Positions 2,503 to 18,172 of a DNA stretch of 28,463 bases are shown here, one piece after another. The stretch comes from a virus. The stretch spans positions 1 through 28,463 of the IMG/VR virus record IMGVR_UViG_3300013092_000003. One strand, written 5' to 3'. Each line of letters opens with the position of its first letter. Within the stretch, counting starts at the first letter, position 1. The position numbers and the translations under genes were made by a program. The notes below the pieces were generated by a model. The model was not told where the DNA came from. It worked only from the letters and a program-made list of their open reading frames with translations, and searched no databases.

Positions 2503-2899
2503 TTATCTCGATGCGCCAGAAGATGTCGAAGAATTGGCCAGAGCCAGATTTTTACAGAATCCTTTAATGGATGCTTGTAAGGCCAAAATCAAATATCTGG
2601 TCAAATCAGCCAAAAAATCAACCTGGCTTGGACAGACTCATCTTGCACATGGTCCATGGAAACACCTATCAGATTTTGATTATGTAATAATTTTATGGGC
2701 CGAATGGTGGGAGTGTGCCTCCGATCATGATAAACAAGCCCTACTCTACCATGAGCTCCTCCACATCGCCCTAACTCAAAACGAGACATGGGCATTACGT
2801 AAACATACGATTCAAGAGTTCCCGGAAGTAGTGAAACAATTTGGGGCGTGGACGCCAGAATTGAAATGTTTGGAACCGATTGTCAGGAGGCCGTATTGA
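2495..2899 (+). CDS. Putative phage zinc metallopeptidase (HExxH)
   Basis: This 134-residue protein carries HELLH at residues 86-90, the zinc-binding and catalytic motif of metallopeptidases, preceded by a helix (DKQALLYHELLHIAL). A downstream His-containing segment (KHTIQEF, about 104-109) could supply the third ligand. Size and layout match the family annotated as putative phage metallopeptidase, whose substrate is unknown. ATG 2495 has a strong GAAGGAGG site. The gene ends in TGATG overlapping the next start. Earlier residues include WLGQTHLAHG, typical of a compact fold. No signal peptide is seen, so it should be cytoplasmic. Confidence 0.7.
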   Translation: MPDYLDAPEDVEELARARFLQNPLMDACKAKIKYLVKSAKKSTWLGQTHLAHGPWKHLSDFDYVIILWAEWWECASDHDKQALLYHELLHIALTQNETWALRKHTIQEFPEVVKQFGAWTPELKCLEPIVRRPY

Positions 2900-3333
2900 T
2901 GAACTGCTCACAATGTGAAAAAGAAATCTCACCAGAAAAACAAATCACTATTGAAGATAAAGAAGACTGGTGTTACGATTGCTATAAAGCCAGTCCAAAA
3001 ACCATCTGTGTTGATTTCGATGGAGTATTAGCAGAATACATAGGCTGGAAAGGTCCTGACCATCTGGGTGATCCTATGCCTGGGGCTCTAGGTTTTCTTA
3101 AACAACTATGTATGCTAAATTATGAGATTGTCATCCATACCACCCGCAATCCATCTGGAATAATTGCTTGGACTTACAAATATGGTGTTGGCGATCTCAT
3201 TCATAAGATTACTAATCGAAAAGTTCCAGCAGTAGCTTACATTGATGATCGAGCAATTCCATTTTTAGGCAATTTCTCTGATACCTTAATGACTCTACAA
3301 AACTTCAAACCGTACTGGAAGGAAGATAAATGA
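2899..3333 (+). CDS. HAD-like phosphatase with N-terminal zinc ribbon
   Basis: Start ATG 2899 is preferred over the upstream ATG 2848 because CAGGAGG at 2884-2890 lies 8 bases before it. The product has 144 residues. The N-terminus has two CxxC pairs (CSQC at 3-6, CYDC at 25-28), a likely zinc ribbon. The rest is a small HAD domain: motif I VDFDGVLAEY (38-47) with the nucleophile and acid Asp pair, a motif II-like HTTRN (80-84), and the acidic motif AYIDDRAIPF (113-122). Such phage HAD proteins are often assigned to nucleotide or end-group dephosphorylation, but the substrate is unknown. A second HAD with a zinc region at the other end lies at 11514. Confidence 0.75.
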   Translation: MNCSQCEKEISPEKQITIEDKEDWCYDCYKASPKTICVDFDGVLAEYIGWKGPDHLGDPMPGALGFLKQLCMLNYEIVIHTTRNPSGIIAWTYKYGVGDLIHKITNRKVPAVAYIDDRAIPFLGNFSDTLMTLQNFKPYWKEDK

Positions 3334-5573: not shown

Positions 5574-6311
5574 ATGATTTATTATCATTCATCTGCCAAT
5601 ATGTCAGAACTGGAAGATGAGTCTATTCATTGTGTCATAACATCTCCTCCATATCCTATGATTGAAAAATGGGATAATAGTTTCGAAGATCAGGGCTGTG
5701 GACCAAATTCTGGGCTTTGGTTTGACTCAATAGCTCTGCTGAGTTTATCCATCCGAGAATGTTATCGAGCTCTTATTTCTGGTGGTATTCTCTGTTTAAA
5801 TATTGGTGACGCCACCAGAACCATCAATAAGAATTTTGAGTGCTATCCAAATTTTGCAGCTTTAACTATTTGTTGCAAAGAAATTGGTTTCACTCCACTC
5901 ATTCCAATCTTGTGGAAGAAAATCAGTAATCGCCCTAACGCATTTCTTGGTAGTGGTTTTTTACCAGTCAATGCTTATGTCTCACAAGATCACGAATATA
6001 TCGGAATATTTCGTAAAGGTAGATTGAGGCAGTTTCATGGTCAACAAAAAATACAAAGACAATTATCAAAATTTACCAAATTTGAGAGAGACTTATGGTT
6101 CCAACAGGTTTGGAATGTCCAGGGAAAGACTGGAGCCAAAGGTGATTCTGGGTGGCCACAAGAAATTCCTTACCGACTGATGAGAATGTTTTCAATTATT
6201 GGTGATACCATACTTGATCCATTTTGTGGTCCAGGAGAAGAAAAATTATACAAGGAATATAGGAGAAATTTTGTGGGTTATGAAATTTTACCAAAGAGAA
6301 TACCGCAATAA
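5574..6311 (+). CDS. DNA methyltransferase, beta-class N4-cytosine/N6-adenine type
   Basis: This 245-residue protein shows motif IV TSPPY (residues 23-27) near the N-terminus and motif I DPFCGPG near the C-terminus. That motif order is typical of beta-class amino-methyltransferases, and SPPY is common in N4-cytosine enzymes. Supporting elements are GGILCLNIGD, the HEYIGIFRKG strand and PYRLMRMFS. Motif I continues as GEEKLYKEYRRN instead of the usual GTTxxAA helix, a slight deletion or divergence that could affect SAM binding. No restriction endonuclease lies beside it, so it is probably a solitary phage methylase for host-restriction evasion or regulation. ATG 5574 follows the helicase stop immediately, with GAGGGGAAA as its ribosome binding site. 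Confidence 0.8.
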   Translation: MIYYHSSANMSELEDESIHCVITSPPYPMIEKWDNSFEDQGCGPNSGLWFDSIALLSLSIRECYRALISGGILCLNIGDATRTINKNFECYPNFAALTICCKEIGFTPLIPILWKKISNRPNAFLGSGFLPVNAYVSQDHEYIGIFRKGRLRQFHGQQKIQRQLSKFTKFERDLWFQQVWNVQGKTGAKGDSGWPQEIPYRLMRMFSIIGDTILDPFCGPGEEKLYKEYRRNFVGYEILPKRIPQ

Positions 6312-6359: not shown

Positions 6360-6788
6360 ATGGCCCTAACCAGTAGGATATTAATTGATGGACAGGAAGT
6401 ATCAGCATACGAGCAAGATCCTCGACAAATTGTATCTCATATGCTTACCCATCCGGCCAATCTGGAGTTCTGGTCATTAGACGCTCTCCGGGAATTCTTG
6501 ACCGGCACCATTGAGTTGGTGTCCAGCTGGTGCAAGATCCGCCTTGAAGAAGCACTTCCAGATGACCTGAAAAGGAAGTACCAGAGGTTCGGGACCTGGG
6601 CAGTCAAGACCCTCAAAAACTTCCCAAGAACCCAGGAGTATGCGGTATATTATCTCTACAATGTGGCTTTGGCCGGAGAGAATAAGGGTCTGTTGAACGG
6701 GTTTGGAATCAGCAATCGTTTTCAGGACCATATCAAGGGAAACCCTGAGAAAGTGACCCTACGGCAAGCCGAATGGAGTGAAGTATAA
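6360..6788 (+). CDS. Hypothetical protein, first gene of the 7-deazaguanine operon
   Basis: This 142-residue protein is largely helical, with no membrane segment or signal peptide. Distinctive stretches are WSLDALREFLTGTIELV (39-55) and YYLYNVALAGENKGLLNGFG (97-116). I do not recognise the family. It follows a promoter and a good ribosome binding site, and its TAATG end overlaps the start of queD, so it is co-expressed with the pathway. It has no visible cofactor or metal motif, so its position is the only link to base modification. Confidence 0.7.
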   Translation: MALTSRILIDGQEVSAYEQDPRQIVSHMLTHPANLEFWSLDALREFLTGTIELVSSWCKIRLEEALPDDLKRKYQRFGTWAVKTLKNFPRTQEYAVYYLYNVALAGENKGLLNGFGISNRFQDHIKGNPEKVTLRQAEWSEV

Positions 6789-7168
6789 TGTCAAAACTTA
6801 TCATTGTTAAACAATTTGAATTTGCAGCCGCTCATCGTCTTCCTAACCACAAAGGAGCTTGTCAAAATCTCCATGGCCATAATTGGACAATAGAAGTAGG
6901 GGTAACAGGGCCAGTAGATCCAGAAACAGGGATGATTGCTGATTTCAAACAACTGAAAGATCTGGTCAATGATCACATCATCGCACATTTAGATCACCAA
7001 TATCTCAATGAAACTGGCTTGATCGGGGTGTGTGAAAACCCCACTGCCGAGAATATGATTCAGTGGATGGCTACAATATTAATCCATCATCTACAGAAGA
7101 CAGGATGTGAACTGGCCTTAATCAAACTCTGGGAGACCTCTGGTTCTAGATGTGAGTGGAGGGCCTAA
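6788..7168 (+). CDS. queD: QueD, 6-carboxy-tetrahydropterin synthase
   Basis: QueD converts 7,8-dihydroneopterin triphosphate (from FolE) to 6-carboxy-5,6,7,8-tetrahydropterin, the second step toward preQ0. The 126-residue length is typical. Zinc ligands are His16 (AAAHRL), His29 and His31 (LHGHN). The catalytic Cys25 lies in GACQNLHGH, and the segments LDHQYLNE, NPTAENM and IKLWET are family hallmarks. It overlaps the previous gene by TAATG and precedes queE with one small gene between. The FolE and QueC-like partners lie further down. Confidence 0.92.
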   Translation: MSKLIIVKQFEFAAAHRLPNHKGACQNLHGHNWTIEVGVTGPVDPETGMIADFKQLKDLVNDHIIAHLDHQYLNETGLIGVCENPTAENMIQWMATILIHHLQKTGCELALIKLWETSGSRCEWRA

Positions 7169-7170
7169 AA

Positions 7171-7371
7171 ATGATTCTCGTTATCTGGAAAACTCGGCAC
7201 AAGGCAGGAGATGAACCAGACTATTTTTCTTATAGTCTTAAGCGAAATGGTTATTTTCCGCTTCTGCTCACAGCTAATCAACTTAGTATGCTATTACCTA
7301 CTGTTAAAACCGAGTTGATTCCAGAGGCACCAGAAACTGGAACCATTGAAATAAATGGAGAGTTGGTCTAA
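7171..7371 (+). CDS. Small hypothetical protein between queD and queE
   Basis: ATG 7171 gives 66 residues and is preferred over GTG 7156 because GGAGGG lies about 8 bases upstream. The protein starts MILVIWKTRHKAGDEPDYF and has a mixed strand/helix composition with no cysteine motif or membrane segment. Its stop overlaps the queE start (TAATG). The family is not recognised. Its tight placement inside the pathway suggests co-expression only. Confidence 0.6.
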   Translation: MILVIWKTRHKAGDEPDYFSYSLKRNGYFPLLLTANQLSMLLPTVKTELIPEAPETGTIEINGELV

Positions 7372-8012
7372 TGCAAGTATTTTCGATCTTTCAATCTGTT
7401 GATGGGGAAGTTAACAAGTGGGGGCAGGGTTGTCCCAGTACTTTCTTAAGATTATCTGGGTGCTCGCTCCGGTGCTCGTATTGTGACATTCCCGAAGCGC
7501 AAGATCCCAAAGCTGGCCAAGAGACGACCATCGATGAGGTTGTCAGGATCATCCGCAACTATGGCTGCAAAAAGATTACCATCACCGGAGGCGAGCCACT
7601 CCTCCAAGAGGACGAAATTCACCTCTTGATAAACCGTCTCTTCCCGGAAAACTACCGTATTTCCATCGAGACGAATGGAACGATTTCTACTCGCCGGTTC
7701 CGGGAATGCCGGAAGCCGAATGAAAACGTGTGCCTTATCGTAGATTACAAACCTGGGCACTACAATCCAGATGCCTTTGAATTCTTGAGAGAGTTCGACT
7801 GGGTGAAAATAGTGGTAGGCAGTCGAGAGGATTTTGATGGAGCTACAAATATTTTAGGGCTTCTGAGAGAGTTGGGCTGTAAGGCAAGATTTGCTCTCAG
7901 TCCAATCCACGAGGCCTTGTCTGGCAAGATGTTAGCTGGATGGATTCTAGATGCAAAGTTGTGGGATGTGACCTTGAATTGCCAAATTCATAAGTGGTTG
8001 GATTTGAAGTGA
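7371..8012 (+). CDS. queE: QueE, 7-carboxy-7-deazaguanine synthase (radical SAM)
   Basis: QueE rearranges 6-carboxytetrahydropterin to 7-carboxy-7-deazaguanine using S-adenosylmethionine and an iron-sulfur cluster. The cluster ligands are Cys31, Cys35 and Cys38 in SGCSLRCSYCD, followed by the SAM-binding TGGEPLLQ (72-79). Further signatures are ISIETNGT and a C-terminal LNCQIHKWLDLK of the kind that ends many QueE proteins. The 213-residue length and the N-terminal FSIFQSVDGEVNKWGQGCPS, which substitutes for the usual TxQGEG, fit the family. It overlaps the preceding gene by TAATG, and a promoter region follows it. Confidence 0.9.
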   Translation: MQVFSIFQSVDGEVNKWGQGCPSTFLRLSGCSLRCSYCDIPEAQDPKAGQETTIDEVVRIIRNYGCKKITITGGEPLLQEDEIHLLINRLFPENYRISIETNGTISTRRFRECRKPNENVCLIVDYKPGHYNPDAFEFLREFDWVKIVVGSREDFDGATNILGLLRELGCKARFALSPIHEALSGKMLAGWILDAKLWDVTLNCQIHKWLDLK

Positions 8013-8902: not shown

Positions 8903-9823
8903 ATGATCTACTATTCACCAGATGATTTCAAGACAGACTGTGAGTCACTGGCTCAGAAGATCAAAAAAGCCAATCTGGCTTGTAAGGTCATCTACGGCAT
9001 TCCTCAGGGCGGGACTGCCTTGGCTATGGAACTCAGTCGGTTGCTAGGCAAACGGGTCATCGACACCAAAGAATTATCCGAATGGGACAAAGAATGTGTT
9101 TTGGTGGTCGATGATGTTGTCGATTCTGGAGCTACCATCAGTCGATTCGAAGGGTATAAAACTGCTACCCTACATGTAAAAACTAACACTCCCGTTCGCC
9201 TATGGCCCGATTTCAATTGTAGTGTGTTGGGTGACTGGATTACTTACTGGTGGGAATCTACTGAGGAAAGATCCATTCAAAATAATATCGTTCGAATGAT
9301 TCAATTTATTGGTGAAGATATAACTCGAGAAGGTTTACTCAAAACCCCAGAACGAATAGTTAAATCCTGGAAAAAAATCTTTGAGGGTTATAAGATAGAT
9401 CCAGCGTCTATCTTTACTACCTTTGAGCCCGATGGTTATAATCAACTCGTCCTACTCAGGAACGTGGAATTTTTCTCGAATTGTGAACACCATTGGCAAC
9501 CATTTTTTGGAAAGGCTCATATTGGTTATATCGCCAAAGATCGAATTGTCGGTATTTCCAAACTCGCTCGTCTCTTAGATATCTATGCTCGTCGTTTACA
9601 AATTCAAGAACGAATTGGTCAACAAGTAACCTCTGACTTAATGAAATATCTTGATCCGGCTGGAGCTGCTTGTATCATCGAAGCAGAACACCTGTGCATG
9701 CGATGTCGAGGAGTAGAGAAGCAAAACTCGGTAATGGTGACCAGCTCTTTAACTGGTCGATTCCTGGAGGATACCGATGGAGGAAGAGCTGCTCGTAGTG
9801 AGCTAATGGGGCTAATTCGATGA
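8903..9823 (+). CDS. folE: Phosphoribosyltransferase-GTP cyclohydrolase I (FolE) fusion
   Basis: The 306 residues hold two domains. Residues 1-115 form a type I phosphoribosyltransferase, with the PRPP-binding motif VLVVDDVVDSGAT at 66-78 and the loop YGIPQGGTALA at 31-41. Residues 125-306 are GTP cyclohydrolase IA, with zinc ligands Cys194 (SNCEHHW) and Cys268 (MRCRG), the motif VGISKLARLLDIYARRLQIQ and a C-terminal SSLTGRF. The cyclohydrolase makes dihydroneopterin triphosphate from GTP, the first step to preQ0. The transferase might recycle guanine or another base to a nucleotide for the same pathway. That coupling is inferred. ATG 8903 has a GGAGA site, and the stop overlaps the radical SAM gene by ATGA. 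Confidence 0.88.
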   Translation: MIYYSPDDFKTDCESLAQKIKKANLACKVIYGIPQGGTALAMELSRLLGKRVIDTKELSEWDKECVLVVDDVVDSGATISRFEGYKTATLHVKTNTPVRLWPDFNCSVLGDWITYWWESTEERSIQNNIVRMIQFIGEDITREGLLKTPERIVKSWKKIFEGYKIDPASIFTTFEPDGYNQLVLLRNVEFFSNCEHHWQPFFGKAHIGYIAKDRIVGISKLARLLDIYARRLQIQERIGQQVTSDLMKYLDPAGAACIIEAEHLCMRCRGVEKQNSVMVTSSLTGRFLEDTDGGRAARSELMGLIR

Positions 9824-10815
9824 GTATTATAAAATGCGAATTCTTATGGACTAGAACCTGCCCAATAAAGTGCTCTTATTGCGGAATGGCAGATGGCAGA
9901 ACCAATACAATTCCATTAGACCAAATCAAGATCGGGATTGATAATCTTAAGACTCTTGGTTGTCAGTTTATTGCTTTCTGCGGCGCAGAGTGTATGACAG
10001 ATTTCGACAAACTACCTAAGTCTATTCAGTATGTCGAAAGTCTTGGGATTCATACGACAGTGATTACCAGCGGAGTCGCAAAAGACTTTTTCAAAAAACT
10101 GGAGATATTATATCAACACGGTTTGAGATCTTTGACCATGTCGTATGATATCATTCCGTTGGATAAACACAGTAAGACCAAAACAGCCTTAGCAATGAAG
10201 GGGCTTGACTTCTTTCAAAAATTAGGACCAATAAGGGATACAGCTATCATCGTAACTCTGACCAAAACCAATTATCAATACCTGCTTCCCACAATTGAAA
10301 AAATGTCAAAAAAGAACATCTGGACCTTCTGCGATTTTATTCATACCGATAGGGGTCAACCTGGAAGTAAATGCAAGTCTGTTGATCCAAATCTACTATT
10401 TACAGACGATGATTATCCAAAATTAAAAGAAATTATGCTGAAAGTTATAGAGATGAAGAAAGCTAGATATCTCTGTCACTCAAGTCTCCAGTTCGTCGAT
10501 ATGGTAACTAGAAACGACTTTGAACTTATCAAGAAATACAACTGGAACTGTGCAGAAGAACCTGACTTCCCGGCCTGGGTTACTTTAGACTGTGATGGTT
10601 ACGTCTATTGTTGCGATGATTTTCAGCCCAGAGACGGAAAATTATTTCATATAACTGAGCTTGTAGAGAGATGGCAAGAGTTTTCTGAATACTGGAAACA
10701 GATCATCCTTGACGTTTGCCGTCCTGGCTGCTGCTGGAGCCATCATATCGACGCACATCTCGTAAAACGCGGTGCATTAGACATAAGCGACTATGTTCAC
10801 GGTCTAAAGTGTTAA
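9820..10815 (+). CDS. Radical SAM enzyme with SPASM-like cysteine tail, in the 7-deazaguanine cassette
   Basis: This 331-residue protein has the cluster motif CPIKCSYC at Cys14, Cys18 and Cys21, then FIAFCGAECMTDF in the place of the GGEP motif. The C-terminal region is cysteine-rich (CDGYVYCCDDF, then CRPGCCWSH, then a terminal Cys), as in SPASM or twitch domains that hold extra iron-sulfur clusters. It is clearly distinct from QueE. It lies between FolE and QueC with an ATGA overlap, so it is probably co-expressed with the pathway. A tailoring step on the 7-deazaguanine or on a protein is possible. The substrate cannot be read from the sequence. Confidence 0.8.
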   Translation: MSIIKCEFLWTRTCPIKCSYCGMADGRTNTIPLDQIKIGIDNLKTLGCQFIAFCGAECMTDFDKLPKSIQYVESLGIHTTVITSGVAKDFFKKLEILYQHGLRSLTMSYDIIPLDKHSKTKTALAMKGLDFFQKLGPIRDTAIIVTLTKTNYQYLLPTIEKMSKKNIWTFCDFIHTDRGQPGSKCKSVDPNLLFTDDDYPKLKEIMLKVIEMKKARYLCHSSLQFVDMVTRNDFELIKKYNWNCAEEPDFPAWVTLDCDGYVYCCDDFQPRDGKLFHITELVERWQEFSEYWKQIILDVCRPGCCWSHHIDAHLVKRGALDISDYVHGLKC

Positions 10816-10816
10816 C

Positions 10817-10858
10817 TCGATTACACGCGATTACAATAGGTCGTAAGTAGGAAATAAT
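10817..10858 (+). other. Short spacer with a repeated 8-mer before queC
   Basis: The 43-base gap contains CGATTACA twice, at 10818-10825 and 10828-10835, one helical turn apart. It then has GTAGGA as the ribosome binding site for ATG 10859. The repeat may be an operator half-site pair or may be accidental. Confidence 0.3.
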
Positions 10859-11530
10859 ATGAGCCAATACCCTATAATTTTACTCTTTAGCGGAGGCATT
10901 GATAGTTTCGTCGCCTGGCATTATCTTAACAAGCCGAAGACAGTTTATTTTAATCTACGCAGTCGATATTCAGAGAAAGAACTCCAAGTCATCAAATCGA
11001 TAAATCCAGAGATTATCATTGATGAATCTCTTAATCTTAATGATAGAGAGATTGGCGAAAAGGCATATATTCCATTCCGCAATTTGCTCCTGGCTGCCCA
11101 GGCAGTAAAATATTCTGATACTGTGGTAATCGCCGGTGTAAAAGACGATGTAGTATCAGATAAGAACGAATTGATATTTCAAGAAACGTCAGATATTCTA
11201 TCCAAGCTGGAAGGAAGAGAAATTCTAGTAATGAGTCCGTTTTGGAGAATGACAAAAGAACAGGTAGTTAAATGGTTCTTATCAAACGGAGGAACCGAAC
11301 AAGAAATCCTCTCTACTGTCTCTTGTTACGATCCAGATCCAAACGTAACGTATTGTGGTAACTGCCCAAGCTGCTTTAGAAAATGGAATGCCTTACGAAG
11401 TAATGGAATAGACATAAAATTTTATAACGAAAGATTAATGAGAGAATACTATAATAAGGCAATAGACAGAATTTATATCCCAGAAAGAAATTTATCAATA
11501 ATAAGAGAGATCGATGCATATCACGGTTGA
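10859..11530 (+). CDS. queC: QueC-like, 7-cyano-7-deazaguanine (preQ0) synthase
   Basis: QueC uses ATP and ammonia to turn 7-carboxy-7-deazaguanine into preQ0. The 223-residue protein has the ATP-pyrophosphatase loop LLFSGGIDS (8-16), the family segment AYIPFRNLLLAAQA (69-82) and the zinc site SCYDP...YCGNCPSCFRKWNAL, with Cys156, 166, 169 and 172. The first third is somewhat divergent and short. It is the fourth pathway enzyme in the window, so preQ0 can be made from GTP by phage enzymes alone. It overlaps the next gene by 17 bases. Related enzymes can make the amide instead of the nitrile, so the exact product is inferred. Confidence 0.88.
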   Translation: MSQYPIILLFSGGIDSFVAWHYLNKPKTVYFNLRSRYSEKELQVIKSINPEIIIDESLNLNDREIGEKAYIPFRNLLLAAQAVKYSDTVVIAGVKDDVVSDKNELIFQETSDILSKLEGREILVMSPFWRMTKEQVVKWFLSNGGTEQEILSTVSCYDPDPNVTYCGNCPSCFRKWNALRSNGIDIKFYNERLMREYYNKAIDRIYIPERNLSIIREIDAYHG

Positions 11531-12143
11531 TATAGATGGAATACTAACCAAAGAAACTATTGGTCACGATTATAAAGAGCGCTCTCCTAACATCGAAGCT
11601 ATCAAAAACCTGCAAAAATTACAAAGAGATGGTTACAAAATAAGTTTGTATTCTTCCCGCTATTTATTAGATCGCACAGATACCATTCAGTGGCTTCTGG
11701 AGAATCAAGTTCCATTCGATAGAATGATTCTTGGTAAGCCAAATGCAGAAGCCTACATTGACGACAAAAGTCTTCCGTATGTTGAACCAAATCTTAACCA
11801 TTATCTTAACTACCATGCCGAAGGGTCGTGTTGGCGACACACTCATAGCAATGGTACTCCTGAGGGGGAGAAGCACCCATGTTATTTTTGCGGAAAAGAT
11901 ATTGATGTTAAAGATGATAATGAATCATGTAGCTGCGGAATTGCGCGTTGTGAGTCCTGTGGAAAATGTCTTTGTAATATCCCATTGTTAAGTCGGATAA
12001 CTGTTATAAAAATCCACGAAAAGTATTGCAAAAATCTACCAGATTTCAATGGTAAGATAGAATTGGATGGATTTGTTGATATGTCTATTATCAAAAATTT
12101 TCTCTCGGCGTTGTCTTATTGCAAGAAAATGGAAAATTTATGA
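11514..12143 (+). CDS. HAD-like phosphatase with C-terminal Cys/His-rich domain
   Basis: This is a 209-residue protein. The first ~95 residues are a minimal HAD fold: motif I VDIDGILTKE (5-14) with the Asp pair, motif II SLYSSRYLLD, and the acidic motif AYIDDKSLPY. Residues about 100-172 are rich in Cys and His (HPCYFCGKD, SCSCGIARCESCGKCLC), probably two zinc sites. ATG 11514 has an AAGAGAGA site and lies inside the end of queC, so translation is coupled. In base-modification clusters such a phosphatase could act on a nucleotide intermediate. It resembles a rearranged counterpart of the HAD gene at 2899, which has its cysteine ribbon at the other end. Confidence 0.7.
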   Translation: MHITVDIDGILTKETIGHDYKERSPNIEAIKNLQKLQRDGYKISLYSSRYLLDRTDTIQWLLENQVPFDRMILGKPNAEAYIDDKSLPYVEPNLNHYLNYHAEGSCWRHTHSNGTPEGEKHPCYFCGKDIDVKDDNESCSCGIARCESCGKCLCNIPLLSRITVIKIHEKYCKNLPDFNGKIELDGFVDMSIIKNFLSALSYCKKMENL

Positions 12144-12649
12144 AACTAAATATTGGTTGTGGGAAAAGAATGTTAGGAGGTTTCTGTAATATCGATATCT
12201 TTGATAAACTTCCTTTTAGCGAAGAAAAAGAATATATGAAAGGAGACGTAAGAAATTTACCTTTTCTAGACGACACGATAGATGAAATTATTGCAGACAA
12301 TGTACTTGAACATTTATTTTTTGAATCCGCCTATGAGGCTTTATGGGAACTCCATCGTATTTTAAAAGAAGTTGGGGTTATCCATATAGCAGTTCCAGAT
12401 TTTGAGTATTGGTGTAGGAATTTTGATAAAGTCAAAAACGATATGTTAGCAGTTACAGATATGACATATTCTATTTTATGTCCAGTTCGTATCGGTTCGA
12501 TGTCTCCCCACAAAAGTTTATGGTGGAAAGATTTGTTAGAGAACGTAATGACAAGAATTGGGTTTAGCGAACTTGAAACAACAGGTAAAGATGGACAATT
12601 ATATTGTAAGGCTATTAAAATACGAAAACATTTAATCGGAGTTCTTTAA
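12140..12649 (+). CDS. SAM-dependent methyltransferase (class I) in the modification cassette
   Basis: ATG 12140 overlaps the HAD stop (ATGA) and gives 169 residues. The SAM-binding motif I is KLNIGCGKRMLGGFCNIDIF (2-21), followed by GDVRNLPFLDDTID (motif II/III) and DNVLEHL (motif IV). HRILKEVGVIHIAVPDF is the strand-helix typical of type 11 methyltransferases. It lies directly before the DpdA-like gene and overlaps it by TAATG. That position makes methylation of a 7-deazaguanine side chain an attractive but unproven role. Similar folds also methylate sugars or proteins. Confidence 0.78.
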   Translation: MKLNIGCGKRMLGGFCNIDIFDKLPFSEEKEYMKGDVRNLPFLDDTIDEIIADNVLEHLFFESAYEALWELHRILKEVGVIHIAVPDFEYWCRNFDKVKNDMLAVTDMTYSILCPVRIGSMSPHKSLWWKDLLENVMTRIGFSELETTGKDGQLYCKAIKIRKHLIGVL

Positions 12650-13461
12650 TGTCAAAAATAAATCTCTTTCTTGATTCCGGAGCTTATAGCGCAAGAAGCA
12701 AAGGAGTCACTATTGATATTCAAAAATACATTTCTTTTATTAAAAAAAATAAAGACTCTATCAGAGTATATGCGAACCTTGATGTAATAAATGATCCAGA
12801 AGCCACTATGGTTAATCAAAAGATTATGGAAGATGCTGGATTAACTCCACTACCATGTTATCATTATGGTGAGGATATTAAGTATCTTGAATATTATTTA
12901 TCAAACTACTCTTATATTGCTATCGGTGGAGTGGCCGGAGGACTAAAAACAACAGCTAAAATTATCGGCTGGTTGGATCCATTATTTCTACACTATATTT
13001 GTGATGAACAGGGTTTACCAAAAGTCAAAGTTCATGGTTTTGGAATGACTTCGTTTTCTTTAATGTCTCGTTATCCCTGGTACTCGGTTGATAGTACAAG
13101 CTGGATACAATTTTCTGCTTATGGTGTAGTATTGGTGCCAGCTTTTCGTCAAGGAGTATATGATTATCAATCTCCTCCTTGGAGAATATTTGTTTCGTTT
13201 GACTCTCCCTTTATGAAAGATTCTGGAAGTCATTTTGAAACCTTCTCTAATGACCAGCAAGAAGTTATCCGTCATTATGTAAAAGAAAAAAATATAGAGT
13301 GGGGAGATTTAGAAGCTACGGTTCCTGGTATTTCTAATAATTATAAAGAAAGAACAAAATTGAATATCATTTATTACAAAGACATAGCTAAGTTTCTACC
13401 TAAATGGCCATGGCCACTAAAACTTATTGAATTCAAACGAAAAGAAGGATTTGGGTTATAA
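12649..13461 (+). CDS. dpdA: DpdA-like DNA 7-deazaguanine transglycosylase
   Basis: DpdA proteins are paralogues of tRNA-guanine transglycosylase that exchange guanine in DNA for a 7-deazaguanine base. The 270 residues show FLDSGAYSARSKG (7-19), matching the TGT acid Asp (Asp9). IDIQKYISFIK and YANLDVINDP follow. AIGGVAGG (91-98) would be the base-binding loop, VKVHGFGMTS (126-135) a conserved turn, and YSVDSTSW (145-152) holds the likely nucleophile Asp148. No TGT-type zinc site is seen, as usual for phage DpdA. It follows the preQ0 enzymes and the methyltransferase, completing the path from GTP to modified DNA. The following small gene may encode the N-terminal part of a related protein. 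Confidence 0.82.
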   Translation: MSKINLFLDSGAYSARSKGVTIDIQKYISFIKKNKDSIRVYANLDVINDPEATMVNQKIMEDAGLTPLPCYHYGEDIKYLEYYLSNYSYIAIGGVAGGLKTTAKIIGWLDPLFLHYICDEQGLPKVKVHGFGMTSFSLMSRYPWYSVDSTSWIQFSAYGVVLVPAFRQGVYDYQSPPWRIFVSFDSPFMKDSGSHFETFSNDQQEVIRHYVKEKNIEWGDLEATVPGISNNYKERTKLNIIYYKDIAKFLPKWPWPLKLIEFKRKEGFGL

Positions 13462-13670
13462 TGAAAATTTATCTAGCAACTTCTACTTCTAAAGTCCACA
13501 ACAAGACTTTGAAAGAAATGGGACAAGAAGATATTCTTCTTTCTTATTTCACTTTGATTGGAGCTAAAGAAGAAAAGGAGCCTGCCGATGTTTTTGGACA
13601 GGAAACAGTTTTTGGAAGCCCTGAAATTACTTCAACCAGGGTTGGCATCCCGAGAGATCGTCGAGGGTAG
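13461..13670 (+). pseudogene. Possible orphan N-terminal fragment of a second DpdA-like protein
   Basis: A 69-codon frame starts with a TAATG overlap at 13461. Its first ~37 residues (MKIYLATSTSKV..., then ILLSYFTLIGAKE) resemble the N-terminal strand-helix-strand that I recall preceding FLDSGA in longer phage DpdA-like proteins. After that the frame runs out of phase into the sliding-clamp gene, whose ribosome binding site and start at 13588 lie inside it. It looks like a truncated gene left at a junction, or a separately translated module for the DpdA above, which begins directly at FLDSGA. It could also be an unrelated small protein. Confidence 0.4.
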
Positions 13671-14587: not shown

Positions 14588-17500
14588 ATGAGTTACTTCG
14601 TCCACCTTCACAATCACGACCAATACTCCCAACTTGATGGTTTAGGAACTGCCAACCAATACGTAGCCGAAGCCTGCCGACTCAACCAATCGCATTTGGC
14701 CTGCACAAATCACGGCAACGTGGATGGTTTGATCAAGTTCCAAAAAGCGTGTGCTAAACAAAACATAACTCCAATCTTAGGCTGTGAGTTATATGTTTGT
14801 CAGGACATCAAGGTCAAAGATAATCAAAGATACCATTTGATAACCCTGGTAAGATCCAGGGAGGGCATGACTAATCTATTTAAGATGCTCTCTATTGCCA
14901 ATCTGGAGGGCTTTCATAAACGGCCCAGAATAGACCCCGATATTCTACTCAGGCATACCGAAGGCTTGGTATTTATGACTGCTTGTGTAGGGTCATTTAT
15001 CAACATGTCAGGCGGCGAAGTATTACTCCAGCAACTTCATCAATGTTCTCCGACCTATCTGGAGATCATGCCCCACAATTATCCAATTCAATTAGAGACT
15101 AATCTTAAAAAATTAGAACTATCCAAGAAATACAACATTCCTCTTGTAACAAGCAATGATTGTCATTATCCTTTTCGATCTGGAGTTAAAACTCAGGAAG
15201 TCTTACTTGCCATTCAAAGAAAAGCTAAATGGAATGATCCTAATCGGTGGAGATTTGAATTCACTGGCCTGTATCTTCGATCTGCAGCTGAAATGGAAAT
15301 GGCTTTCGAGAAACAAGGCTGCTTTGACAAGAAAACTTATCTCGATGCTATGGCCAGAACTATGGAAGTAGCGGAACTTTGTAATGGTTATACAATTGAA
15401 AAACTTCCAGTCAATCTACCGAAAGTCTATGGATATGAAGATCAAGACGAAACAGAACTACTTTGGTCAATCATAGTCGATGGCTGGTCAAAACGACCAG
15501 TAGGAGATTATGGTGTTTACGAATCAAGGGTTAACGAAGAGTTCAATCTAATCGTTCAGATGGATTTTCAACGATATTTCCTTATCGTCTGGGAACTGAT
15601 CAATTGGTGTAAGAAGAATGGAATTATGGTTGGTCCCGGGAGAGGTAGTGCCGGTGGAAGTCTGATTTGTTACCTCATGGGAATCACCGATGTAGATCCC
15701 ATTAAATATAGACTTATCTTTGCCAGATTTATCAGTCCAGAAAGGAGAGATTTACCAGATATTGATTGTGACTTTGAGGATCATCGTCGTGAGGAGGTAA
15801 AACAGCATCTTCGAGATTGTTATGGAGAGCATAACGTAACTGGTCTGTCAACCTTTACTAGCATGAAAGGTAGAGGTGCTCTACGAGATGTAGCGAGGGT
15901 TTTCGAGACTCCCTTAAAGGAAGTCGATTTAGCAGCAAAGACTATCGTAAGTATCGCAGATGGTGATCCGAGGATAAACCATAGTATTGAAGATAGTTTA
16001 AAACTGGAAGAATTAAAACAGTTCCAGAAGAAGTATCCAGATGTAATCAGATATAGTATGGAATTAGAAGGACAGATACGCGGTAGTGGCCAACACGCTG
16101 CGGCAACTGTTTTATCGTCTGATGATCTTCGACAAGGTCTTAGATGTAACTTAGTTCAACGAAGCGGAATTCTAGTGGCCAACTGGGACAAAGGTGACGC
16201 CGAGTACATGGGCTTAATGAAATTAGATGTGCTTGGGTTGGCTGCCTTATCTATTCTCAATGGTGCTCGAAAGATGATAGTAGAGAATTTAGGGGCAGAA
16301 TTTGATATACAATTCGACCAGATTCCACTTAACGATCAGAAGGTGTTCCGAGAGATTTCGGCAGGTAATACCACAGGTGCCTTCCAGATCAATAGCCATG
16401 GATTAACACAACTTTGTAAAGACATGCAAGTTAAAGAATTTAACGATATTGTTCTTGCGACTGCTTTATTTAGACCTGGGCCTTTAGGAGGAGGAGTAGT
16501 TGAAGACTTTTTGAAACGGAGGAGAGGACAATCTAAAGTCACTTATATTCATCCTAAGCTAAAGAAATATACCAAAGATACTTTAGGTATTGTCATTTAT
16601 CAAGAACAAGTCATGTGGGCCATGTACGAACTTGCTGGTCTGCCTTGGGGAGATTGTGATAAAGTTAGGAAAGTAATGGGTAAGTCCAAGGGCGAAGAAG
16701 CCATGGACAAATTCAAGAAACAATTTGTAGATGGTTGTTTGTGGACTGGTAATCTAAACTCCAAAGACGCCGCTCATATTTGGGATATGCTTGCGTCGTT
16801 TGGAAAATACGGATTTAATTTGGCACATTCTGTTGAATACTCTATGATAACATATTGGATGATGTATTTAAAATGTTACTACCCCAAAGAATTCTTAAGC
16901 GCCTGTCTTACGTACGGCGGAAAAGATGATGCTAAAAACTATGTAGACGAAGCCAGGCGACTTGGTCTTCAAATAGAACTTCCAAAGCAAGGATTGTCAA
17001 AATCAAAGGATTGGTATGCTCCACCAAATCAAAATGTTATCTATGCTCCATTGATGGCTATTAAGGGAATTGGAGATTCTCAAGCAGAAAGAATTCTAAA
17101 AGGAAATATCAATAAAGCAGTTCAGACCAAACCAAGTAGCCGAGGAAAAGTTAAACAACAAAAAGAAAAGATAATTCCACGAGGGTTCTTTGATAAGAAA
17201 ATCATCAATCCAATATCAGAACCATCACAAATAACTATTCAGAAGACACAGAGGTCTGCCATTACAGAGACGCTTACAAAAGCTGGCTACTATCGTGAAC
17301 AAGATCTGACATACGAAGAATTGAAACAAGCTATCCCATTTTTTGACTTCAATGTCTTGACTGGTCAAGAACGGTTTTCTCGACTAAATTTAACTGATTA
17401 TTCTGACAGAGATATTCTTGCCTGCCATCTTGATAATTACCAAGGCAATCTGATTGAAATCAATAGATACATCTTACCCAAGATCGAATGTCAAAGCTGT

Positions 17501-18172
17501 GAGTTGATTAATGAGTGTACCAAACCAGTTCAGCCCTCCTTTGGTCGATACAATATTATGATTCTTGGGGAGGCCCCTGGGAAGACAGAAAATCAAGAAG
17601 GAATTGGTTTTGTAGGTAGTGCGGGTGAAGATGTGCTTTGGCCAGCGCTAAAGAAATATGGATTATCTCCATTTATGTTCCACATCTCAAATATTTGTAA
17701 GTGTTACCCTTCAAAAACAAAAACGCCATCTAAAAAACATATCCAAATTTGTTCACAACACATTGATATAGAAATCGAAAATCTAAAACCGATTATCATT
17801 CTGGCCTTCGGTAATACTGGAGTCAGGTTCTTCCGGGATGAAAGCAGTGGTATATCTGGGTTGAATGGCACAACAGAATGGTCCGATAAATATCAGTGTT
17901 GGATCTGTTGGTGTATTCATCCAGCCTCAGTATTATACCAGCAGAGCAACAAGCAAGTTTTCGCCGATGGTATTGAAAACTTTGCTCGGAAGTTAGCTAT
18001 GATTGGAGGCCAGGTTTGGGCTGGTGATGAATGGCAACCAGATCCTATGACTTGTCCTTATGGTGGAATCTTTGCTTCCAATAACAATATGTATGCTGAG
18101 TGCCAAGAATGTCAGATTTGGCAACAGTGTGCTATGTCCAAAGCAAAATCCGATTGGATGGCAGTGAAATGA
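14588..18172 (+). CDS. dnaE: DNA polymerase III alpha fused to an iron-sulfur uracil-DNA glycosylase
   Basis: The 1194 residues hold a PHP domain (VHLHNHDQYSQLDG, residues 6-19), the polymerase core (PGRGSAGGS near 350; catalytic Asp391 and Asp393 in LPDIDCDFED; Asp547 in KLDVLGL) and a helix-hairpin-helix near 825 (IKGIGDSQAERIL). From about 960 a family-4/5-type uracil-DNA glycosylase follows: Cys968 and Cys971 (ECQSC), LGEAPGKTENQEGIGFVGSAG-like motif 1 near 993, NICKCYP at 1035-1041, Cys1055 and HPASVL at 1111. These cysteines fit a 4Fe-4S cluster. The usual ED of motif 1 is EN here. A tail (1150-1194) carries C1156, C1172, C1175 and C1181, the CQxCx5CA pattern. No tau-binding or OB region is obvious. 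The start lacks a strong ribosome site and is probably coupled to dnaN. Confidence 0.9.
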   Translation: MSYFVHLHNHDQYSQLDGLGTANQYVAEACRLNQSHLACTNHGNVDGLIKFQKACAKQNITPILGCELYVCQDIKVKDNQRYHLITLVRSREGMTNLFKMLSIANLEGFHKRPRIDPDILLRHTEGLVFMTACVGSFINMSGGEVLLQQLHQCSPTYLEIMPHNYPIQLETNLKKLELSKKYNIPLVTSNDCHYPFRSGVKTQEVLLAIQRKAKWNDPNRWRFEFTGLYLRSAAEMEMAFEKQGCFDKKTYLDAMARTMEVAELCNGYTIEKLPVNLPKVYGYEDQDETELLWSIIVDGWSKRPVGDYGVYESRVNEEFNLIVQMDFQRYFLIVWELINWCKKNGIMVGPGRGSAGGSLICYLMGITDVDPIKYRLIFARFISPERRDLPDIDCDFEDHRREEVKQHLRDCYGEHNVTGLSTFTSMKGRGALRDVARVFETPLKEVDLAAKTIVSIADGDPRINHSIEDSLKLEELKQFQKKYPDVIRYSMELEGQIRGSGQHAAATVLSSDDLRQGLRCNLVQRSGILVANWDKGDAEYMGLMKLDVLGLAALSILNGARKMIVENLGAEFDIQFDQIPLNDQKVFREISAGNTTGAFQINSHGLTQLCKDMQVKEFNDIVLATALFRPGPLGGGVVEDFLKRRRGQSKVTYIHPKLKKYTKDTLGIVIYQEQVMWAMYELAGLPWGDCDKVRKVMGKSKGEEAMDKFKKQFVDGCLWTGNLNSKDAAHIWDMLASFGKYGFNLAHSVEYSMITYWMMYLKCYYPKEFLSACLTYGGKDDAKNYVDEARRLGLQIELPKQGLSKSKDWYAPPNQNVIYAPLMAIKGIGDSQAERILKGNINKAVQTKPSSRGKVKQQKEKIIPRGFFDKKIINPISEPSQITIQKTQRSAITETLTKAGYYREQDLTYEELKQAIPFFDFNVLTGQERFSRLNLTDYSDRDILACHLDNYQGNLIEINRYILPKIECQSCELINECTKPVQPSFGRYNIMILGEAPGKTENQEGIGFVGSAGEDVLWPALKKYGLSPFMFHISNICKCYPSKTKTPSKKHIQICSQHIDIEIENLKPIIILAFGNTGVRFFRDESSGISGLNGTTEWSDKYQCWICWCIHPASVLYQQSNKQVFADGIENFARKLAMIGGQVWAGDEWQPDPMTCPYGGIFASNNNMYAECQECQIWQQCAMSKAKSDWMAVK

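Follow-up and report, generated by a model that had tools for sequence, protein, structure and literature searches.

The window analyzed here, the linear fragment of 28,463 bases that makes up the entire IMG/VR record IMGVR_UViG_3300013092_000003, carries a complete-looking 7-deazaguanine operon (queD, queE, PRT-folE, rSAM, queC, HAD, MT, dpdA; PRT, phosphoribosyltransferase-like; rSAM, radical S-adenosylmethionine enzyme; HAD, haloacid dehalogenase-type phosphatase; MT, methyltransferase). In the canonical pathway, FolE, QueD, and QueE lead to 7-carboxy-7-deazaguanine (CDG), QueC converts CDG to 7-cyano-7-deazaguanine (preQ0), and DpdA puts the modified base into DNA in place of guanine. In this operon and its relatives, canonical QueC is replaced by a conserved, co-directional, and DpdA-linked module composed of the rSAM (9820..10815), a divergent QueC-family PP-loop enzyme, here called QueC* (10859..11530), and the HAD (11514..12143), all on the + strand. 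We consider it rather probable that this cassette is a phage DNA-hypermodification module, where QueC* would couple CDG to an amine, the HAD and rSAM enzymes would tailor the adduct, and DpdA would insert the base, and the DNA of the window virus and its relatives probably contains a modified guanine not described so far.

The linkage of the three genes was evaluated by profile scans of viral contigs; most of the related records are fragments, so gene absence refers to the stretch examined. The scan with a DpdA profile gave 80 loci, 74 of them distinct, and rSAM is found in six of these, always along with QueC* and HAD. Across the 74 loci, rSAM tracks QueC* (6/0/2/66, Fisher p 1.5e-7), and no locus combines canonical QueC, present in 46, with QueC*, present in eight (0/46/8/20, Fisher p 2e-4), both p-values treating related phages as independent. 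A second scan, with the rSAM profile only, recovered 33 viral loci together with a single genome contig, corresponding to 29 distinct loci, 28 of which have QueC* and DpdA, with FolE in 26 and QueE also in 26. The lone exception, L121, ends inside rSAM at the contig end. Moreover, canonical QueC is found in none of these 29 loci. In the window and 28 intact relatives the module genes lie on one strand, the commonest order being FolE-rSAM-QueC*-HAD-DpdA (15/29).

The original prediction, made from the letters of the window, had proposed that rSAM, HAD, and the methyltransferase together make a new, further tailored 7-deazaguanine, and would have given way if their homologues were found mostly away from DpdA and Que genes. 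This check was run and such is not the case for rSAM. The three genes are present and intact on the + strand, in the coordinates and frames proposed, and the sequence data support well a tailoring role for rSAM and HAD, which also co-occur with DpdA; the methyltransferase does not belong to the core, its homologues being found in only 4/29 loci. Translational coupling, also proposed, would fit the overlaps of FolE/rSAM (4 nt), QueC/HAD (17 nt), HAD/MT (4 nt), and MT/DpdA (1 nt); rSAM and QueC do not overlap and are separated by a gap of 43 nt.

About thirty related viruses have the module, all of them from environmental DNA. No match to the window rSAM was obtained by tblastn against 50,697 isolate phage records, and single-sequence searches with it found none in phages, viral contigs, or genomes, only the profiles drawn from DpdA loci recovering its relatives. 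Also, scanning with only the DpdA of the window gave no matches, a megablast of 25 kb gave no isolate relative, and a search of the isolate records with the window QueC or with QueC*-HAD fusions retrieved nothing closer than distant relatives of QueC or HAD. Two of these matches, Bacteroides phage BS162P1 and an unannotated fecal contig, carry DpdA and a QueC*-like gene, with no rSAM or HAD detected. Among cellular genomes, 84,980 species genomes were scanned by pattern and gave one match, a phage-like contig of a Sulfuricurvum metagenome-assembled genome (L161:421-7817), where the entire module lies with clamp and polymerase genes like those of the phages; no further match appeared when 298 genomes were sampled from the phylum of this contig. 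The contig is probably viral sequence binned with its host, whose canonical QueC lies elsewhere.

The original prediction had counted queC among the canonical enzymes. Judged by its sequence, the protein belongs instead to a separate, divergent subfamily and is itself part of the novelty. Although it is recognized as a QueC-family protein (Pfam QueC 1.9e-17), its TIGR00364 score of 40.7 bits (NCBIfam) falls under the cut-off of 150.3. Libby et al. 2026 defined the canonical QueC signature as SGGxDS, YxQxHxxE, VPxRN, YPDC, and C(x)8CxxCxxC, and the Escherichia coli enzyme requires Y35, R99, Y131, and Y189, with Y35 and Y131 lying in the YxQxHxxE and YPDC motifs and being needed for preQ0 formation; the divergent QatC, where these motifs are missing, is unable to replace QueC (PMC13329287). 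In QueC*, the SGGxDS ATP loop is kept in 45/46 members, the window included, as are [VI]PxRN in 41/46 and the zinc cysteines CxxCxxC in 46/46, but neither YxQxHxxE nor YPDC is present in any of the 46. For comparison, canonical phage QueC proteins from the same kind of loci retain YPDC in 45/52 cases and YxQxHxxE in 30/52. Conversely, a CFR[KR] motif, counted with the slightly looser pattern C[FL]R[KR], is found in 45/46 QueC* and in 0/52 canonical phage QueC. In a tree obtained by a quick method, QueC* falls on one side of a branch of length 1.15 with SH-aLRT 100. A different arrangement is observed in four loci (L041:7288-8863, L057, L058, and L063), in which a HAD gene and two tandem divergent QueC-like genes adjoin FolE and DpdA in a locus that has no rSAM; several of these tandem genes have no recognizable SGGxDS.

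The rSAM belongs to a 34-member family and shows a Radical_SAM domain (Pfam 2.4e-9, 38 bits against a cut-off of 29.5), with the CxxxCxxC cluster motif (CPIKCSYC in the window; C14, C18, and C21) conserved in 34/34 members. In its C-terminal region, C244, C265, and C304 are invariant and C300 is present in 31/34 members. These four conserved cysteines would fit one auxiliary cluster, the twitch pattern, and fall short of the seven cysteines and two auxiliary clusters of a full SPASM domain, so that the earlier description of the protein as SPASM-like does not hold. The AlphaFold2 model of the enzyme (pLDDT, the predicted local distance difference test score, 94.3) has as its best structural match BlsE (Z 25.1, 304 residues, root-mean-square deviation 3.6), followed by SuiB (Z 21.6), PqqE (20.3), and viperins (about 19), a list in which the lack of a given family is not evidence against kinship. 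BlsE, from the synthesis of blasticidin S, is a nucleoside decarboxylase that acts on cytosylglucuronic acid (PMC3715490). The modeled fold of the rSAM is shared with BlsE at 13% identity, and a GAEP loop similar to GGEP is found in most members of the rSAM family.

The HAD protein has the complete HAD motif set, with D6, D8, R49, and K75 conserved in 28/28 members, D83 in 26/28, and Ser or Ala at site 48. The DxD, a Ser/Thr-type motif II, the Lys, and an acidic motif IV correspond to those of HAD phosphatases. The Cys/His-rich C-terminal tail, part of the original description of the protein, is optional and confined to the window, L059, L064, and L095. The structural model of the HAD is poor past residue 85, where the mean pLDDT is 68. 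The best Protein Data Bank (PDB) match of the HAD profile is the D-arabinose-1,5-diphosphate phosphatase AfhF of phage HY126 (9IQW, 2.7e-19), also a small phage-encoded HAD phosphatase with the same catalytic domain. The difference is that the HAD studied here is fused or coupled to QueC*. Altogether, the relatives of rSAM and HAD suggest that the substrates are small and phosphorylated, and possibly resemble sugars, but they prove nothing in this respect.

HAD is a separate gene in 21/29 distinct loci of the rSAM scan. Among the remaining eight, five have it as a C-terminal fusion to QueC* (L094, L099, L109, L113, and L120), and L121 is the locus cut by the contig end. Further QueC*-HAD fusions are found in L133, L146, L156, and L159, amounting to nine distinct loci across all scans, and the fused domains match the HAD profile at 1.8e-28 to 2.2e-42. 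In L079, HAD is fused instead to the N-terminus of PRT-FolE. These fusions link HAD with the deazaguanine enzymes, and not just with the neighborhood at large.

The nearest relative found, L009, is a natural counterpart of the window that has no module. The two phages share QueD (77% identity), FolE (70%), QueE (67%), and DNA polymerase III (54%). However, L009 has canonical QueC; no rSAM of the window family is found across its 84-kb record, nor are QueC*, HAD, or the methyltransferase found in 20.9 kb of it. Moreover, the window QueC* is 59-64% identical to the QueC* of phages whose clamps match only at 28-38%. The contrast with L009, together with a QueC* identity far above that of the clamps, suggests that the module seems to move as a unit, in exchange for queC.

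The methyltransferase (class I, SAM-dependent, 12140..12649, + strand; Methyltransf_11 1.3e-7) starts at the ATG at 12140, although the TTG at 12119 could serve as well. It was rejected as part of the module core on account of the few loci with homologues and, since unrelated methyltransferases occupy the same slot elsewhere, it is best described from its distribution as a local accessory. DpdA (12649..13461, + strand; phrog_887 1.7e-54) adjoins FolE, QueD, and QueE, as in the phage DpdA pathway, and retains D9 and D148, which are invariant with the DpdAs of seven isolates, Escherichia phage CAjan included. It starts at LDSGA and has no counterpart of the 50-60 residue N-terminus of others, a short form shared by 42/107 distinct DpdAs. 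A small open reading frame (ORF) of 69 residues follows (13461..13670, + strand), which resembles the N-terminal segment of longer DpdAs (profile E 0.06), with many stronger relatives beside DpdA elsewhere. Small ORFs with a MKIYLA...RLLSYY pattern, often several per genome, adjoin short and full-length DpdAs alike, and may represent N-terminal segments that can be detached. We did not accept that the short DpdA is a split enzyme with the 69-residue ORF as its missing piece, considering that small ORFs lie beside 31/42 short and 30/47 full DpdAs. Also, a 444-residue protein with a YSDSGGLQ motif similar to that of tRNA-guanine transglycosylases (L156:7562-8896, phrog_10773), with rSAM and a QueC*-HAD fusion as its neighbors, is by its sequence a candidate for an unrecognized DpdA subfamily.

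In CAjan and six other isolates, the order is queE, queC, queD, folE, dpdA, then clamp and polymerase, and nothing similar to rSAM or HAD is found within the deazaguanine clusters of these seven. The window resembles the preQ0 pathway of CAjan and Mycobacterium phage Rosebush in the clustering of folE, queD, queE, and dpdA, and that of CAjan also in the small ORF, clamp, and polymerase that follow dpdA, but it has rSAM, QueC*, and HAD where those phages have canonical QueC. There is a precedent for a QueC variant setting the base: FolE, QueD, QueE, QueC, and DpdA give dPreQ0, and Gat-QueC, as in phage 9g, gives 2'-deoxy-7-formamidino-7-deazaguanosine (dG+) (PMC6884629). QueC* differs from Gat-QueC by its lack of a glutaminase domain and falls in a separate clade. 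A further likeness is to QatC and Cap9, of protein deazaguanylation (a proposed role in the case of QatC), which have the QueC fold and are thought to couple CDG to an amine; QatC, as QueC*, has an altered substrate signature. However, QueC* retains [VI]PxRN and CxxCxxC, adds CFR[KR], and sits with DpdA, rSAM, and HAD. A sister arrangement is present in eight loci (L082:5743-9995, L143, L148, L149, L150, L152, L155, and L160), where a more distant rSAM adjoins DpdA, usually in company with a short-chain dehydrogenase, Gat-QueC, and QueC*, and often with HAD; it may represent another version of this chemistry.

For the substrate, the order of steps, and the product of the module, we infer the following scheme. 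FolE, QueD, and QueE would make CDG, which would be the branch point of the pathway because QueC is absent and QueC* present. QueC* would adenylate the CDG carboxylate with ATP, as its family does, and then most likely couple the activated CDG with an amine that is not free ammonia, given that the preQ0-synthase substrate signature is lost. HAD would take a phosphate off the amine donor or the adduct, and rSAM would decarboxylate, oxidize, or otherwise rearrange the side chain, which accessory methyltransferases, differing among phages, may cap. DpdA would finally place the finished base, or a precursor of it, where guanine had been in the phage DNA; the sequence does not tell whether tailoring would come before or after this insertion. 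A more specific version is possible, and we hold it tentatively: QueC* would form an amide between CDG and an amine that bears a phosphate, such as an amino sugar or an amino alcohol, HAD would dephosphorylate it, and a BlsE-like rSAM would remodel the side chain into that of a bulky 7-deazaguanine, different from the eight derivatives that we know of in phage DNA. This would amount to a new class of DNA hypermodification.

Several observations weigh against this proposal. The trio is not strictly invariant, L116 and L119 showing no HAD, and in L146 rSAM and a QueC*-HAD fusion are present but DpdA, FolE, and QueE are not found within 20.6 kb. Gat-QueC accompanies QueC* in four of 19 module records (L052, L082, L111, and L115), QueC* being the sole PF06508 protein in the other 15 (the longest record reaching 104 kb). 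The common fold of the rSAM model and BlsE is no proof of a common reaction. Moreover, the window itself is only a fragment, and DpdA-free relatives are possibly under-sampled, as the profile seeds were drawn from DpdA loci and two peptide patterns were used per scan.

Among the alternatives, QueC* could be a fast-evolving but ordinary synthase of preQ0 or 7-amido-7-deazaguanine (ADG), the DNA base being a known one (dPreQ0 or dADG) and rSAM and HAD having another function in the infected cell. Its status as the only QueC homologue in most module records would fit this, as would the retained ATP loop, [VI]PxRN, and zinc cysteines and the fact that its profile finds QueC structures first in the PDB (3BL5, 1.7e-14). 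Nonetheless, the two motifs whose tyrosines E. coli QueC needs are wholly lost, Gat-QueC coexists with QueC* in the four records mentioned, and QueC* is strictly accompanied by rSAM and fused to HAD, which makes this option unlikely. By analogy, a formamidine-type base (dG+ or similar) could be reached by a new route, if QueC* added an amino acid or another donor and rSAM cleaved the C-N bond, as in the archaeosine synthesis of some archaea, where a ligase and then a radical SAM enzyme act on the 7-deazaguanine (ArcS plus RaSEA). We see this as improbable, in view of the fact that the RaSEA model is absent from the NCBIfam matches of the window rSAM and from the 25 families that its 34 members match most often, and that phages already own Gat-QueC for dG+ (PMC6884629), some module phages keeping both.

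Still more improbable is a conjugation of CDG to a protein N-terminus, as done by Cap9 and proposed for QatC, which would make a phage or host protein, and not DNA, the target. The QueC family has indeed been repurposed for protein deazaguanylation (PMC13329287, PMC13279940), and Cap9 is among the PDB matches of the QueC* profile (8e-12), but the adjoining DpdA retains both conserved Asp residues, neighborhood clustering showed no conserved small partner protein, and rSAM and HAD have no counterpart in the Cap9 and QatC systems as described. Finally, rSAM and HAD might be hitch-hikers in a variable slot of the replication region with no part in base modification, considering that HNH-like ORFs, methyltransferases that are not homologous, and further unrelated genes also occur in that slot. 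To this we give hardly any credence: rSAM co-occurs with QueC* and DpdA in nearly all loci (28/29), never with canonical QueC, and HAD is fused to QueC* nine times.

The preferred reading, DNA hypermodification by rSAM, QueC*, and HAD, would have consequences beyond this phage. To our knowledge, the phage 7-deazaguanine pathways worked out so far stop at small changes to preQ0 or CDG; a 2023 paper reportedly deals with four further derivatives. The presence of the module in many uncultured phages predicts a chemically richer DNA base, whose chemistry has not been open to study so far because no isolate phage record matches rSAM. The QueC*-HAD fusions and the pair formed by the window and L009 now make the question directly testable. 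If true, QueC* would catalyze a QueC-family reaction beyond those in the 2026 family survey, and the module would represent a new phage route for escaping restriction, evasion of bacterial defenses being its likely purpose.

The operon sits between a DnaB-like gene and the clamp gene, in a phage replication region that also encodes DNA polymerase III alpha, a clamp loader, a gp32-like protein, RecA, and an AAA/metallophosphatase pair. Its remaining enzymes, all on the + strand, are QueD (6-carboxytetrahydropterin synthase, 6788..7168; Pfam PTPS 3.9e-36, TIGR03367 over cut-off), QueE (CDG synthase, 7371..8012; TIGR03963 6e-38, phrog_2076 5e-29), and FolE (GTP cyclohydrolase I, 8903..9823; GTP_cyclohydroI 7.4e-62, TIGR00063 over cut-off). 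The N-terminal phosphoribosyltransferase-like domain of the latter (8903-9250; phrog_8995, residues 3-119) is shared with the FolE of Vibrio, Sphingomonas, and Stenotrophomonas phages. A second HAD protein, with a Cys-rich N-terminal segment, lies outside the operon (2848-3333), and an N6/N4 DNA methyltransferase (5574-6311; Pfam 5.8e-24), with a 68% counterpart in L009, is located directly upstream of the deazaguanine genes. Also, the DNA polymerase III alpha (14588-18172) has a C-terminal domain of the uracil-DNA-glycosylase superfamily (residues 989-1123, 1.6e-21).

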